This document shows positions 8,695-27,666 of a stretch of 64,000 bases of DNA, in pieces (the first letter of the stretch is position 1; each line of letters begins with the position of its first letter). The notes below the pieces were generated by a model. That model saw only the letters and a program-made list of their open reading frames with translations. It did not search any database and was not told the DNA's origin. A program made the translations under genes and the position numbers. Origin of the DNA: Caulobacter sp. (GTDB lineage: Bacteria > Pseudomonadota > Alphaproteobacteria > Caulobacterales > Caulobacteraceae); NCBI GenBank assembly GCA_030678995.1, contig JAUXTQ010000005.1:62001-126000 (forward strand). The letters are read 5' to 3'.

Positions 8695-8703
8695 GTGCGC
8701 CTG

Positions 8704-8853
8704 CTCCTCCCCATGCAATGGGGAGGTGGGCTTTCGAGCGCGCTGTAAGCGCGAGAAAGGTCGGAGGGGCAGTCGGTGCACTTGACGCCCCATCGTCGTC
8801 TGTCGCGCTTTCAGCGCGCTCCAGACGACACTTCCCCAGCGAAGCTGGGGAAG
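8704..8853. repeat. G-run/hairpin composite repeat, copy A3
   Basis: Near-duplicate of the copy at 2225-2386: CTCCCC...GGGGAG at the left, GTCGTCTG (8795-8802) pairing with CAGACGAC (8822-8829), and CTTCCCC...GGGGAAG at the right. It fills the space between the convergent tpiA and GNAT genes. Confidence 0.8.
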
Positions 8854-8862
8854 AGCGGATAT

Positions 8863-16361: not shown

Positions 16362-16374
16362 GGCTGATCTTAAT

Positions 16375-16526
16375 CCTCTCCGCGAAGCGGGGAGGGGGAC
16401 CACGCGGAGCGTGGTGGAGGGGTTGCGCGGGCGGGGGTGGATAGCTGCGTTCTGGCTTCGACGCCTGACGCTGGCGCCGCCCCTCAGTCACGCTCCGCGT
16501 GCCAGCTCCCCACAAGGGTGGGGAGC
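16375..16526. repeat. G-run/hairpin composite repeat, copy A4
   Basis: Right-facing unit: GGGGAGGGGG, stem ACCACGC (16399-16405), loop GGA, GCGTGGT (16409-16415), then GGAGGGG. An inverted unit follows (GCCCCTCAGTCACGC...GCGTGCCAGCTCCCC), and closing hairpins CCTCTCC/GGGGAGG and CTCCCC/GGGGAG flank the pair. Located downstream of eno. Confidence 0.8.
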
Positions 16527-16962: not shown

Positions 16963-17997
16963 ATGGCGCGGGCGCGTAAAGCGGAAACAACATTGGGCAA
17001 GGCTGCTGACAACGTTGTCAATTCAAGCCTGAAGGGCGCGTCGCAGGCGCAGCTGCTCAAGTTCTATCGCGACATGCTGCTCATCCGCCGTTTCGAGGAG
17101 CGGGCCGGCCAGCTGTACGGCATGGGTCTGATCGGCGGCTTCTGCCACCTCTATATCGGCCAGGAAGCGATCGCCGTGGGCATGGACGCCATCCGCAAGC
17201 CCGGCGACCAGATCATCACCGGCTACCGCGACCATGGCCACATGCTGGCCGCCGGCATGGACCCGAACGCGGTCATGGCCGAGCTGACCGGCCGCGCCGG
17301 CGGCTCATCCAGGGGCAAGGGCGGCTCGATGCACATGTTCTCGACCGCCGCCGGCTTCTACGGCGGCCACGGCATCGTCGGGGCGCAGGTCAGCCTGGGC
17401 ACCGGCCTGGCCCTGGCCGACAAGTACCGGGACAACGGCGCCGTCAGCTTCACCTATTTCGGCGACGGAGCGGCCAACCAGGGCCAGGTCTACGAGAGCT
17501 TCAACATGGCCCAGCTCTGGGACCTGCCGGTGGTCTATGTGGTGGAAAACAACCAGTACGCCATGGGCACCTCGATCGAGCGGTCCAGCTCCGAGACCCG
17601 GCTGCACAAGCGCGGCGTGTCGTTCAACATCCCGGGCGAGGAAGTCGACGGCATGGACGTGGAGGCGGTGGCCGAGGCCGGCGCCCGCGCCGCCGGGCAC
17701 GCCAGGTCCGGCAAGGGCCCCTACATTCTCGAGATGAAGACCTACCGCTACCGCGGCCACTCGATGAGCGACCCGGCCAAATACCGCACCAAGGAGGAGG
17801 TCGACGAGGTCAAGAAAACCCGCGATCCCATTGAACACCTTCGGGAACGGCTGGCGGCTGTAAAGGTCGAGGAGGACGAGCTTAAGGTCATCGACGCCGA
17901 GGTGAAAGCCATCGTCGCCGCCGCCGCCGAGTTCGCGCGGACCAGCCCCGAGCCGGACCCGGCCGAGCTGTACACCGACGTCTATCTGGAGGCGTGA
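16963..17997 (+). CDS. pdhA: Pyruvate dehydrogenase E1 component, alpha subunit
   Basis: With PdhB forms the thiamin-diphosphate-dependent E1 that decarboxylates pyruvate. 344 residues. Thiamin-binding motif 'GDGAANQGQVYESFNMAQLW' ends near 'VENNQYAMGTS'; phosphorylation-loop-like 'RYRGHSMSDPAKYRTKEEV' is present. An AGGGAG ribosome binding site precedes the ATG. The stop codon overlaps the GTG of an extra gene lying between pdhA and pdhB. Confidence 0.97.
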   Translation: MARARKAETTLGKAADNVVNSSLKGASQAQLLKFYRDMLLIRRFEERAGQLYGMGLIGGFCHLYIGQEAIAVGMDAIRKPGDQIITGYRDHGHMLAAGMDPNAVMAELTGRAGGSSRGKGGSMHMFSTAAGFYGGHGIVGAQVSLGTGLALADKYRDNGAVSFTYFGDGAANQGQVYESFNMAQLWDLPVVYVVENNQYAMGTSIERSSSETRLHKRGVSFNIPGEEVDGMDVEAVAEAGARAAGHARSGKGPYILEMKTYRYRGHSMSDPAKYRTKEEVDEVKKTRDPIEHLRERLAAVKVEEDELKVIDAEVKAIVAAAAEFARTSPEPDPAELYTDVYLEA

Positions 17998-18437
17998 GGG
18001 TGGCTAACTTTTTGGCAGTTTCTCTCGCTGTTGGAGCCGTCCTCCTTGGGCCCGCGGCGTCCGCCCAAACGCCGCCTGTGACCGCCGCGAGCCGCGCTGA
18101 TCTGGTTTGTGTGTCGTTTATTTCGGGCGTTACGTCGCCAAACCAAGCCACTTATCTGATTGACGGTCGAGAGACGTCGAGACGCGACTTGGCTAGGTCG
18201 ATTGCAGAGGCAGCGCGCGGCAAGCGGCTCGTAGGGTTCTACTTCGAGACTGGTGCGGCCATCATGGGTGGCGGGATGCCAGCCATCAACGACCAACGTG
18301 CCCGGATCATTGAGCTCGGCGAAATTTTTAAACGGGTTGAGGGAAGCGAGGGAACGCCTTCCAGATCGAGTAGTCACCGGAACTGCGAGGACTTGATCAC
18401 CACCGACCGCGCTGAATCGACTGGAACAAGTCAATGA
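17994..18437 (+). CDS. Exported protein of unknown function inside the pdh operon
   Basis: 147 residues: a signal peptide ('[19 protein letters not shown]') cleaved after ASA-Q, then about 125 residues with two Cys ('DLVCVSF', 'RNCEDLI') that could form a disulphide. No family recognised. The GTG start overlaps the pdhA stop and its TGA overlaps the pdhB ATG, so it is coupled at both ends. Codon use is visibly less GC-rich at third positions than in pdhA or pdhB, suggesting recent arrival. Its role in a cytoplasmic dehydrogenase operon is unclear. Confidence 0.6.
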
Positions 18438-19837
18438 CCGACATCCTGATGCCGGCCCTCTCCCCCACGATGGAGGAGGGCACCCTCGCCAAGTGGCACG
18501 TGAAAGCGGGTGACACGGTCAAGGCCGGTGATGTCATCGCCGAGATCGAGACCGACAAGGCGACCATGGAGGTCGAGGCCGTCGACGAGGGCGTCGTCGG
18601 CGCCATTCTTGTGCCGGCCGGAACCGAGAACGTGAAGGTCAACACGCCGATCGCGCGGTTGGGCGAGGGTGAGCCCCCCTCGGCGTCTGTCGCTTCGCCC
18701 CAGACGCCACTCCCCCCGGAGGGGGGAGAGCCGGCCTCCGCTCCTCCCCCTGAGGGGGAGGTGTCGCCTGGAGCAGCGCGACAGGCGACGGAGGGGGCAA
18801 GTGGCGGCCGGCCCAAAGTCGAACTTCAGGACCCGCAAACCCCCGCCGGCGCCAAAATGGTCCGCATCACCGTGCGCGACGCCCTGCGCGACGCCATGGC
18901 CGAGGAGATGCGCCGCGACGGCGACGTCTTCCTGATGGGCGAGGAGGTCGCGCAGTACCAGGGGGCCTACAAGGTCTCCCGCGACCTCTTGCAGGAGTTC
19001 GGACCACGCCGGGTCATCGACACCCCGATCACCGAGCACGGCTTCGCGGGCCTGGGCGTCGGCGCGGCCATGGCGGGCCTGAAGCCGATCGTCGAGTTCA
19101 TGACCTGGAATTTCGGCATGCAGGCCATCGACCAGATCATCAACTCCGCCGCCAAGGCGCACTACATGTCCGGCGGCCAGATCCGGGCGTCGATCGTGTT
19201 CCGCGGTCCCAACGGCGCGGCCAGCCGCGTCGGGGCCCAGCACAGCCAGGACTACAGCGCCTGGTACGCCCAGGTGCCCGGCCTGAAGGTCATCGCGCCG
19301 TACGATGCCGCCGACGCCAAGGGCCTGCTCAAGGCGGCCATCCGCGACCCCAACCCCGTCGTCTTCCTTGAGCACGAGATGATGTACGGGACCGAGTTCG
19401 ACATCCCCGATGTCGAGGACTGGGTCGTCCCGATCGGCAAGGCCAAGGTCCGCCGCGAGGGCAAGGACGTGACCATCACCGCCCACAGCCGCATGGTCGG
19501 CTTGGCGCTGAAGGCCGCCGAGACGCTGGCCGCCGAGGGCATCGAGGCGGAGGTCATCGACCTGCGCACCCTGCGCCCGCTGGACCATGAGACGATCCTG
19601 CAAAGCGTGCGCAAGACCAACCGCCTGGTCAGCGCCGAGGAAGGCTGGGGCCCGATGGGCGTCGGCGCCGAGATCGTCGCCCGGGTGGTCGAACACGCCT
19701 TCGACTACCTCGATGCGCCGCCGCTGCGGGTGCATCAGGAAGACGTCCCGCTGCCCTACGCCGCCAACCTGGAAGCCCTGTCGCTGCCCGGTCCGGACAA
19801 GATCGTCCGGGCGGTGAAGGCGGTGTGTTACCGGTGA
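18434..19837 (+). CDS. pdhB: Pyruvate dehydrogenase E1 component, beta subunit, with N-terminal lipoyl domain
   Basis: 467 residues. Residues 1-78 are a lipoyl domain with the acceptor Lys42 in '[16 protein letters not shown]'. Residues 81-122 are a Pro/Glu/Ser/Ala-rich linker encoded by a palindromic repeat. Residues about 138-467 are the transketolase-like E1-beta ('[20 protein letters not shown]', '[20 protein letters not shown]'). Lipoyl-bearing E1-beta is known in alphaproteobacteria. The ATG overlaps the stop of the upstream exported-protein gene. The lipoyl segment shares long exact nucleotide identity with pdhC. Confidence 0.96.
18674..18797 (+). repeat. G-run/hairpin composite repeat inside pdhB, copy A7
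   Basis: Two units head to head: stem GGCGTCTG (18682-18689) with CAGACGCC (18701-18708), hairpin CTCCCCCC/GGGGGGAG, hairpin CTCCCCC/GGGGGAG, and stem GTCGCCTG (18763-18770) with CAGGCGAC (18782-18789), bounded by CCCCCCTC and GGAGGGGG. It is read in frame as the linker between lipoyl and E1-beta domains. Confidence 0.85.
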
Positions 19838-19854
19838 GCCCGTGTTCCCCCTTC

Positions 19855-19942
19855 CCGTCATCGTCGGACTTGTTCCGACGACCCACGAACACCCATGAAC
19901 GTCGGTGTGCATGGGTCCTCGCGACAAGCGCGAGGATGACGG
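19855..19942. repeat. CCGTCATC-type palindromic repeat, copy B3
   Basis: Outer arms CCGTCATC and GATGACGG, with inner stems GTCGGACTTGTTCCGAC and CCTCGCGACAAGCGCGAGG, and CACCCATG/CATGGGTC in the middle. It sits between pdhB and the GFA-family gene. Confidence 0.65.
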
Positions 19943-19958
19943 TAAAATTGGAGCGCTA

Positions 19959-20363
19959 ATGACCGCCCCCGCTTTCTTCCCCCACACCGGCGGCTGCCAC
20001 TGCGGCGCGGTGCGGTTCGAGGTCGACCTGCCGGCCGTGGTCGAGGCCCAGACCTGCAACTGCTCGATGTGCGAGAAGGTCGGCTTCATCCACATCATCG
20101 TGCCGGAAAGCCGCTTTCGCCTGACCTCGGGCGCCGACCAGATCACCACCTACACCTTCAACACCGGCGTCGCGAAACACACCTTCTGCAAGGTCTGCGG
20201 CGTGAAGAGCTTCTACCGGCCGAGGTCCAATCCGGACGGCTGGTCGGTCAACGCCCGCTGCCTCGACACCACCGAAGGCCTCGATCTGCGCATCGAGGCC
20301 TTCGACGGCCAGAACTGGGAGGCCCACGCGGCCGCCCTGGCGCATCTCAGTAAGGAAGACTGA
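19959..20363 (+). CDS. GFA-domain (glutathione-dependent formaldehyde-activating-like) zinc protein
   Basis: 134 residues with the GFA/CENP-V zinc pattern: 'GGCHCGAVRFEVDLP', 'CNCSMCEKVGF' and 'TFCKVCGVKSFYRP', giving the seven-odd Cys ligands of the fold. The family includes glutathione-formaldehyde-related proteins, but most members have no proven reaction. I start at ATG 19959 (MTAPAFFP); the preceding residues derive from a repeat. Its stop codon abuts the pdhC ATG without a gap, so it is co-expressed within the pdh cluster. Confidence 0.85.
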   Translation: MTAPAFFPHTGGCHCGAVRFEVDLPAVVEAQTCNCSMCEKVGFIHIIVPESRFRLTSGADQITTYTFNTGVAKHTFCKVCGVKSFYRPRSNPDGWSVNARCLDTTEGLDLRIEAFDGQNWEAHAAALAHLSKED

Positions 20364-21686
20364 ATGTCCATCGAGATCCTCATGCCCGCCCTGTCTCCGA
20401 CCATGGAGGAGGGGACGCTGGCGAAATGGCACGTGAAGGCGGGTGACACCGTGAAAGCGGGCGACGTCATCGCCGAGATCGAGACCGACAAGGCGACCAT
20501 GGAGGTCGAGGCCGTCGACGAGGGCGTCATCGAGGCGCTGCTGATCGACGCCGGGACGGAGAATGTGAAGGTCAATGCGGTGATCGCGCGGCTGGCGGGG
20601 GAGGGGGAGCCCCCCTCGGCGTCTGTTGCTTCGCGCCAGACGCCACTCCCCCCGGAGGGGGGAGAGCGATCCGCATCTGCTCCTCCCCCTGAGGGGGAGG
20701 TGTCGTCGGGAGCGAAGCAACCGGCGACGGAGGGGGCAAGTCCCATGGCCCCAAAGCTCAACGGCTCGTCGGGCGAACGCATCTTCGCCTCGCCACTGGC
20801 CCGCAGGCTAGCCCAGGCGGCGGGTATCGATCTCAAATCCATCGCCGGCTCCGGCCCGCACGGCCGGGTGATCAAGGCCGACGTCGACGCCGCCCGCGGC
20901 AAGGCGCCCTCGGCTGCGCCCGCGCAATCCGGCGCCGCGCCTGCCTCTGCGCTCCCCCGCCAGCACCAGTCGCTGGAGCAACAGGGCATCCTCGCCGGCA
21001 GCTACGACCTCGTCCCGCTCGACGGCATGCGCAAGACCATCGCCCGGCGGATGACCGACAGCTTCCGCGACGTGCCGCACTTCCCGCTGACCATCGACCT
21101 GGAGATTGACGGCCTGCTGGCGGCGCGGGCGAAGATCAACGCCATGCTCGAGAAGGACGGCGTGAAGGTCAGCGTCAACGACCTGGTGATCAAGGCCGTC
21201 GCCGTGGCCCTGGGGCGCGTGCCGGAGGCTAACGCCAGCTACACGCCCGAAGGCATCGCCCTGCACCACCATGCGGACATCGCCATGGCCGTGGCCATCG
21301 ACGGCGGCCTGATCACCCCGATCATCCGCGCCGCAGAGACCAAGGGCCTGGCCCGGATCGCCACGGAGGCCAAGGACCTGGCGACCCGGGCCCGGGACAA
21401 GAAGCTCAAGCCCGAGGAGTTCCAGGGCGGCACCTTCACGGTGTCCAACATGGGCATGATGGGCATCCGGTCCTTCGCCTCGATCATCAACGAGCCTCAG
21501 GCCTGCATCCTCAGCGTCGGCGCCGGCGAGCAGCGGCCGGTGGTGAAGAACGGAGCCCTGGCGATCGCGACCGTGATGACCGTGACCCTGACCTGCGACC
21601 ACCGGGTGGTCGATGGCGCCATCGGCGGCCGCTTCCTGTCGGCGTTCAAGGCGCTGATCGAAGATCCCCTGACGATGATCGTTTGA
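20364..21686 (+). CDS. pdhC: Dihydrolipoamide acetyltransferase, E2 of pyruvate dehydrogenase
   Basis: 440 residues. Lipoyl domain at 1-80 (acceptor Lys43), then a linker at 83-125 encoded by a palindromic repeat, the peripheral-subunit-binding domain ('[19 protein letters not shown]', '[14 protein letters not shown]'), a second Ala/Pro linker, and the catalytic acetyltransferase domain with '[15 protein letters not shown]' and active-site '[11 protein letters not shown]'. It forms the core of the complex. One lipoyl domain here plus one on PdhB is the expected alphaproteobacterial arrangement. Confidence 0.97.
20610..20736 (+). repeat. G-run/hairpin composite repeat inside pdhC, copy A8
   Basis: Same architecture and position as the pdhB copy: stem GGCGTCTG (20618-20625) with CAGACGCC (20637-20644), two C/G-run hairpins, then GTCGTCGG (20702-20709) with CCGGCGAC (20721-20728), bounded by CCCCCCTC and GGAGGGGG. 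It is 127 nt against 124 nt in pdhB, a difference of exactly one codon. Confidence 0.85.
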
Positions 21687-27501: not shown

Positions 27502-27664
27502 CCTCCCCGGAGCGGCGCGAGGGGGAGGGGGACCGGCGGAGCCGGTGGAGGGGCGGCGCTGACGTTAGCGGCCCGATCCTGAATTCAGGTCCTTCCGACT
27601 CGACCGGCGCTGCCCCTCCACCATCCTGCGGATGGTCCCCCTCCCCAGCAAGCTGGGGAGGATC
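27502..27664. repeat. G-run/hairpin composite repeat, copy A5
   Basis: Unit 1: GGGGGAGGGGG, stem ACCGGC (27532-27537), loop GGA, GCCGGT (27541-27546), GGAGGGG. Unit 2 inverted: CCCCTCC, stem ACCATCC (27620-27626), loop TGC, GGATGGT (27630-27636), CCCCCTCCCC. Between convergent genes; outer CTCCCC/GGGGAG pairs close it. Confidence 0.82.
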
Positions 27665-27666
27665 CT

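Follow-up and report, generated by a model that had tools for sequence, protein, structure and literature searches.

In pyruvate dehydrogenase (PDH), the interdomain linker is a flexible arm that swings the lipoyl group. In the stretch of Caulobacter sp. DNA analysed here (64,000 nucleotides, positions 62001-126000 of contig C1, hereafter the window), the linkers of PdhB and PdhC are both encoded by a palindromic repeat that also occurs in apparently intergenic copies. This raises the question of how such a repeat came to encode part of a central metabolic complex, and whether the case is an isolated one. We consider it highly probable that both linkers are in-frame copies of a high-copy, otherwise intergenic palindromic dimer resembling the bacterial interspersed mosaic elements (BIMEs), that such copies are kept in linkers and loops, that the old linker has been replaced, and that this has happened recurrently.

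A palindromic dimer in frame within pdhB and pdhC

The two genes, the repeat found in each of them (family A) and its parts are, in window coordinates:

18434..19837, + strand: pdhB, E1 beta with an N-terminal lipoyl domain and the in-frame repeat as linker (Pfam domains Biotin_lipoyl 3-76, Transket_pyr 145-318 and Transketolase_C 335-457)
18674..18797, + strand: family A palindromic dimer, 124 nt, in frame, pdhB linker between the lipoyl and E1beta domains
18682..18708, + strand: pdhB left stem-loop GGCGTCTG/CAGACGCC, arms 18682-18689 and 18701-18708
18710..18728, + strand: pdhB left inner hairpin CTCCCCCCGGAGGGGGGAG
18744..18760, + strand: pdhB right inner hairpin CTCCCCCTGAGGGGGAG
18763..18789, + strand: pdhB right stem-loop GTCGCCTG/CAGGCGAC, arms 18763-18770 and 18782-18789
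20364..21686, + strand: pdhC, E2 acetyltransferase with lipoyl, E3-binding and catalytic domains (Pfam) and the in-frame repeat as linker
20610..20736, + strand: family A palindromic dimer, 127 nt, in frame, pdhC linker between the lipoyl and E3-binding domains
20618..20644, + strand: pdhC left stem-loop GGCGTCTG/CAGACGCC
20646..20664, + strand: pdhC left inner hairpin
20683..20699, + strand: pdhC right inner hairpin
20702..20728, + strand: pdhC right stem-loop GTCGTCGG/CCGGCGAC

The element is composed of two inverted units, with terminal CCCCCCTC/GAGGGGG, a left stem-loop, two CTCCCC..GGGGAG hairpins flanking a short spacer, and a right stem-loop. A preliminary description of the window had placed both elements at these positions and with these lengths, correctly; the one-codon difference between them is located in the central spacer. 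It had also stated that all stems pair, which holds for the right stem of pdhB (8 of 8 pairs) but not strictly for that of pdhC, where one T/G mismatch is found (G-U as RNA). Both elements are free of stop codons and, as had been proposed, in frame: the open frames run on into the flanking Pfam domains, lipoyl and E1beta in pdhB, and lipoyl, E3-binding and acyltransferase in pdhC.

Copies outside the pdh genes

Family A is also present elsewhere in the window:

2223-2267 and 2320-2388 (G000:C1:64224-64268, 64321-64389), unstranded: family A copies, apparently intergenic, core GTCGTCTG..CAGACGAC at 2329-2363
8702-8769 and 8786-8855 (G000:C1:70703-70770, 70787-70856), unstranded: family A copies, apparently intergenic, core at 8795-8829

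The intergenic status of these and all other copies is read from the open frames around them. The linkers do share their core with intergenic copies, as first described: the core has two matches outside genes in the window, versus a mean of 0.00 in 100 shuffles, and the linkers align to the apparently intergenic copies at 79% over 85 nt (pdhB) and 74% over 115 nt (pdhC). Throughout the genome, the hairpin motif CTCCCCN{2,14}GGGGAG occurs 261 times, against 5 occurrences of a backward control, which together with the shuffles rules out chance hairpins. A search of the same genome with the pdhB linker DNA gave 14 matches, including pdhB, pdhC, the apparently intergenic copies, a second pdhC-like gene and rsmB. 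The dimer arrangement is also found outside genes at another locus (L006). At gathering thresholds, Rfam detected only a tRNA in the window, and hence no known RNA family corresponding to the repeats.

Recoding test of the linkers

RNA folding energy was tried as a detector of repeat-derived linkers and dropped because it misses the window's own pdhB linker; similarity to repeat copies was therefore used instead. Each linker was scored against a library of repeat copies from outside the pdh genes, with 200 random recodings of its own peptide as the null, and was called repeat-derived when it reached 40 bits or more with none of the 200 recodings scoring as high. Scores were 68.9 bits for the pdhB linker, whose best recoding reached 44.6, and 62.6 bits for the pdhC linker, whose best recoding reached 35.6; in neither case did any of the 200 recodings score as high. 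A pooled null of 50 recodings per linker, in which 937 of 9650 had a match, was uninformative and was replaced by each linker's own recodings. Among the five families described below, the library copies of A, B and D are apparently intergenic, those of C are coding (glyS and bkdB), and those of E include a copy in an ABC-F gene and the copy at L269. The library excludes the pdhC linker of L195 itself, and the call for that linker still holds.

The L269 copy, in the window's own genome (C66:35342-35462), is a family E dimer situated in an open frame directly before an acyltransferase-like gene (named by eye). Such a position fits either an element upstream of the gene or an extension of its N-terminus, and the copy was left out of the coding count.

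Recurrence and turnover in the Caulobacteraceae

For the comparison with relatives, we took the best 80 of 491 loci in named genomes, which with the window makes 81 genomes, and cut out 81 pdhB and 77 pdhC linkers, 158 in total (pdhC is missing for L145, L167, L172 and L198). Twenty-two of the 158 linkers, in 15 of the 81 genomes, are repeat-derived and belong to five palindromic families. The lowest called linker has 51.8 bits and the remaining 136 have 32.8 bits or less. The families are distributed among the pdh linkers as follows:

Family A: window
Family B: L126, L127, L128, L131
Family C: L130, L133, L153, L168
Family D: L164, L194, L197
Family E: L126, L184, L195, L203

The linker of the window is not one that all relatives share. 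Among 75 genomes of the genus, a family A pdh linker was found in the window's genome only, both by a DNA search, in which no more than 11 candidate stretches were scored per genome, and by a peptide search, in which all candidates were scored. Moreover, 18 relatives' linkers that were read directly all differ from the window's.

A tree of the E1beta domain (81 rows, built by a quick method, with weak support on 29 of 75 inner branches) requires at least 8 changes of linker state in pdhB and at least 9 in pdhC, counts that do not distinguish gain from loss. The clade of the window, L126, L127, L128 and L131 (support 88, inner order mostly open) carries, in that order, families A, B, B, B and B in pdhB, and A, E, B, B and none in pdhC. 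Read most simply, family B gave way to family A in the pdhB gene of the window's lineage. One relative, G106, has two pdhC-like genes, one with (L168) and one without (L239) a family C linker; its genome is a metagenome-assembled genome (MAG) and may be mixed.

The other families are also repeated within genomes. Matches per genome number 57-106 for family B (6 of 6 genomes; 67 in the window's), 7-10 for family C (4 of 4), 80-101 for family D (4 of 4) and 18-53 for family E (5 of 5). All were taken at E 0.001 or better; they are inflated by including both strands and partial copies and, for B, D and E, lowered by scoring no more than 40 candidate stretches per genome. Family E is represented in the window itself, the identities being to the pdhC linker of L126:

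484..530, unstranded: family E copy, 86% over 51 nt, either within a gene or intergenic
16373..16422, unstranded: family E copy outside the pdh genes, 86% over 50 nt
27520-27553 and 27613-27665, unstranded: family E copies outside the pdh genes, 92% and 79%

In-frame copies in other proteins

The repeats are also found in frame in BCKDH-E2 (the E2 of branched-chain 2-oxoacid dehydrogenase), in glyS at two sites, in rsmB, in an Lhr-type helicase and in a Uup-like ABC-F protein. In-frame copies in other genes, for which the preliminary description had suggested a search, do exist, and several lie between domains. In the Uup-like protein of the window's genome, family E is in frame at residues 501-517, between the second ABC domain (ABC_tran, 280-414) and the CTD (521-590, Pfam), and in the Lhr-type helicase of a near relative (G028) two adjoining repeats start at residue 219, between DEAD (37-208) and Helicase_C (298-399). 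The rsmB gene of the window's genome, coding for an RsmB/F-type rRNA methyltransferase, has 54 residues at the insert site, whereas its counterpart in G011, 91% identical (query residues 1-385), has 11.

For family C, a search with a 38-aa peptide, covering 50 of the 80 named genomes, gave 12 matches in 7 of these 50, all within open frames of 464-821 aa: three in pdhB, three in pdhC, two in BCKDH-E2 between lipoyl domains and four in glyS. Since a protein query favours open frames, a DNA search is the fairer count; in four genomes it gave eight matches with E below 1e-30 (query included), located in three of them, and all eight are in frame inside genes. Two different sites of glyS carry inserts. 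Site 1 is occupied in L260, which lacks the insert at site 2, and the net gain there is 31 aa. Site 2 is occupied in L265 and L261, both of them insert-free at site 1, and in L258; the net gains at this site are 35, 35 and 38 aa.

Two cultured strains carry such copies, which argues against binning artefacts: Brevundimonas aveniformis DSM 17977 has family E both in pdhC and in the linker of BCKDH-E2 (bkdB), and B. basaltis DSM 25335 has family C in glyS. In the BCKDH-E2 of Brevundimonas genomes at L266 and L243, additional repeat-like linker stretches, e.g. SPPAGGSTREAGEGGK, were seen between the second lipoyl domain and the E3-binding domain.

Proposed origin and retention of the in-frame copies

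We propose that BIME-like palindromes are dispersed by a copying mechanism and would strike genes at random. A copy that landed in a linker or surface loop, in a frame rich in Pro, Ala, Gly, Ser and Glu, would leave the protein working and could be retained; copies at other places in genes would be purged. The older linker would then be lost, so that the repeat peptide would become the swinging arm moving the lipoyl domain between active sites. At least five repeat families would have gone through these steps, repeatedly across the Caulobacteraceae, in pdhB, pdhC and other proteins.

Two properties of the linkers bear on this scheme. Repeat-derived linkers measure 64-83 aa in pdhB, versus a median of 64 without repeats, and 58-74 aa in pdhC, versus a median of 55.5. 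They are thus as long as other linkers or somewhat longer, which indicates that the old linker has been largely replaced and that the repeat must do its work. In addition, of the six possible frames, all 22 use the one with the highest share of disorder-promoting residues (P, A, G, S, E, Q, D, T, K and N), with a mean of 0.88, as do 129 of the 136 ordinary linkers, with a mean of 0.94.

The alternative that survives best is one of pure tolerance, in which copies hit at random, survive solely in linkers and loops and bring no benefit; it departs from the reading above only in denying recruitment, and in our estimate it has a slightly better than even chance of being right. Inserts are also present in glyS and rsmB, which have no known need for a swinging linker, and PMC3733652 argues likewise for other repetitive extragenic palindromes (REPs). 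The majority of the evidence fits tolerance. Against it stands the replacement, rather than extension, of the old pdh linker, by which the repeat has to serve as the linker. The suggestion that a repeat had been domesticated holds in that the repeat forms the linker; for domestication in the sense of having been selected for, tolerance is an adequate alternative. A bolder extension is that the palindromes of the Caulobacteraceae are a renewable supply of linkers: unrelated families would each have come independently to form the swinging arms of pyruvate and branched-chain dehydrogenases, with one family displacing another within a genus, and family C may persist mainly through its encoded peptide, because its full-length copies in four genomes are all in frame inside genes. 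We raise this tentatively, with more doubt than confidence.

Several observations weigh against the view that intergenic palindromes entered these linkers and replaced them. No full-length intergenic copy of family C was found in the four genomes, and its intergenic origin is assumed by analogy with the other families. The insertions in glyS and rsmB are not entirely clean, with a few residues replaced at the junctions, and the alignments of these genes show no target duplication. The pdhC linker of L186, at 32.8 bits, was not called and yet lies above its 200 recodings, the 40-bit cut-off being a choice. The named genomes with repeat-derived PDH linkers, B. aveniformis excepted, are MAGs to judge by their titles. 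By folding energy against codon shuffles, the window's pdhC linker stands out (z -2.8, 0 of 100 as low), but its pdhB linker is outside the 28 lowest of 137 linkers. Finally, stop-free frames exceed those of base shuffles in family A, are about equal in family E, and are at or below them in families B and D. Elements built to be open in all frames were also considered, and were rejected on the values for B and D.

A separate matter is the number of events behind the two copies in the window, which need not be two separate insertions. A single insertion, shared between pdhB and pdhC by duplication or gene conversion of a lipoyl-linker cassette, is in our judgement evenly balanced against the contrary. 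In the window's genome, alignment over the full element (87-99%) is limited to pdhB, pdhC and the second pdhC-like gene (pdhC2), and other copies align partly, e.g. rsmB at 93% over 58 nt and copies on C52 at 73-74% over 101-113 nt. The pdhB and pdhC linkers are also closer to each other (87%) than is the adjoining lipoyl DNA (82%), and six of the seven genomes with a call in both genes have the same family in both. However, the linkers of L127 and G011 (locus L039) are nearer to their orthologue (96% and 91%) than to the linker of the other gene (83%), a family C pdhC linker is as near to bkdB (91%) as to pdhB (92%), and the recurrence across species would be left unexplained. The linkers of L127 and G011 also contradict an ongoing homogenisation of pdhB and pdhC, which we had considered as well.

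The pdhC2 gene, on contig C3 (L085 4623-5920), is 91.9% identical to pdhC over 1302 nt and has a nearly identical linker, and nothing else in the 12 kb around it matches the window's pdh genes. It may be a true paralogue or come from a related strain in the assembly. In the element the two genes differ at 2 of 137 sites, against 18 differences in 242 sites of the lipoyl part and 101 in 944 sites of the remainder (Fisher p 0.015 and 0.0001), a low divergence of the element that fits either recent conversion or constraint on the DNA.

The hairpins might act as nucleic acid, for instance by reducing ribosome speed between domains or by lending stability to the pdh mRNA, with the peptide incidental. 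Besides the low divergence of the element in pdhC2, the strong predicted stems speak for this. Nevertheless, we regard a nucleic-acid role as improbable: over 137 linkers, relatives' linkers are on the whole unstructured beyond codon shuffles (median z 0.12; 8 at z below -3), the most linker-like frame is used in every repeat-derived linker, and recent conversion also accounts for pdhC2, a gene that lies on a different contig, in an assembly with 3.45% contamination. Codon bias, by which Pro/Glu/Gly-rich linkers in GC-rich codons would become palindromic and repeat-like by convergence and without a mobile repeat, is hardly credible: the majority of linkers in these genomes are indeed Pro/Ala-rich and GC-rich and repeat peptides score 36-101 bits in their best recodings, but no recoding attains the observed score in any of the 22 called linkers, for which the test refutes it, the 136 ordinary linkers of the same genomes stay within the limit given above, and many closely similar DNA copies, to which the linkers align, exist outside these genes.

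The remainder of the locus

The source genome (3.62 Mb in 67 contigs, 89.5% complete) is probably a MAG, and the closest PdhB proteins among named genomes, a set from which records of the window's own genome may be missing, belong to Caulobacter MAGs, at 88%. The pdh genes are accompanied by:

16963..17997, + strand: pdhA, E1 alpha of pyruvate dehydrogenase (Pfam E1_dh, E 8.6e-102)
17994-18437: open reading frame of 147 aa with no Pfam match, between pdhA and pdhB
19850-19945: further palindromic stretch CGTCATCGTCGGACTTGTTCCGACGA .. CTCGCGACAAGCGCGAGGATGACG, between pdhB and the following gene, perhaps of another repeat family
19905-20363: GFA-domain gene (glutathione-dependent formaldehyde-activating enzyme family), between pdhB and pdhC

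Comparison with known palindromic repeats

Enterobacterial BIMEs are composites of inverted palindromic units and are intergenic by definition. Family A is likewise a composite of inverted units, but it is also found inside genes.

Palindromes that code for protein are familiar chiefly as selfish DNA of obligate intracellular bacteria (PMC2229807). A like behaviour is now seen in the Caulobacteraceae, where several unrelated repeat families converge on one site of a central metabolic complex. The preliminary description had held that such a linker would be unusual; its interpretation is supported and the case is real in the window, but it recurs across the family with five repeat families, and the phenomenon is broader and stranger than had been proposed. 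These natural replicates, with insert-bearing and insert-free relatives available for pdhB, pdhC and glyS, make it testable whether, and how, mobile non-coding DNA can become working protein sequence. They also call for caution, since Pro/Ala-rich linkers of such proteins may be repeat-derived. Among open-licence PMC papers (title and start of abstract), no prior report of palindromic linkers in 2-oxoacid dehydrogenases or glyS of Caulobacteraceae was found.

The CGTC- and GTAG-tagged REPs are described in PMC3733652 as high-copy palindromes, often arranged as head-to-head dimers and sometimes intragenic, and its authors suggested that flexible linkers or loops tolerate the intragenic copies; its main text names no dehydrogenase or lipoyl protein. 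A CGTC-tagged REP has a stem of 8-9 bp with A/T pairs at the first and second positions and a loop of 4-5 nt (PMC3733652), whereas the pdhB element has an 8 bp stem opening with G-C and then T-A, and an 11-nt loop. GTAG-tagged REPs have a terminal unpaired GTAG, whereas the pdhB element lacks GTAG and no GTAG or CTAC is present in seven of eight family A copies, with one occurrence in L005.

The Caulobacter repeat CIR, of about 110 bp, has two palindromic arms with GANTC sites and was not found intragenically, according to PMC2229807. Family A resembles it as a palindromic-arm repeat of similar size in Caulobacter. However, none of the eight family A copies examined contains GANTC, and CIR lies outside genes with stops in all frames, whereas family A is in frame in pdhB and pdhC.

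The Rickettsia palindromic elements (RPE), to which the repeat had been likened from the start, are palindromes of 105-146 bp with copies both in intergenic DNA and within genes, where they are read in frame as part of conserved proteins (PMC2229807). The likeness of family A to RPE and to the protein-coding palindromes of Wolbachia is good in behaviour: it is palindromic, about 125 nt long (124 and 127 nt), has intergenic copies and is in frame in conserved genes. It differs in its host, one of the Caulobacteraceae with Caulobacter MAGs as nearest named relatives and not one of the Rickettsiales, in that the families are high in GC and of other structure, and in that one linker of a single enzyme complex has repeatedly been occupied by unrelated families. 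We set the Caulobacteraceae repeats beside RPE on the basis of behaviour. They are assigned neither to RPE nor to the CGTC- and GTAG-tagged REPs, nor to CIR, and they work like RPE and like the intragenic REPs.

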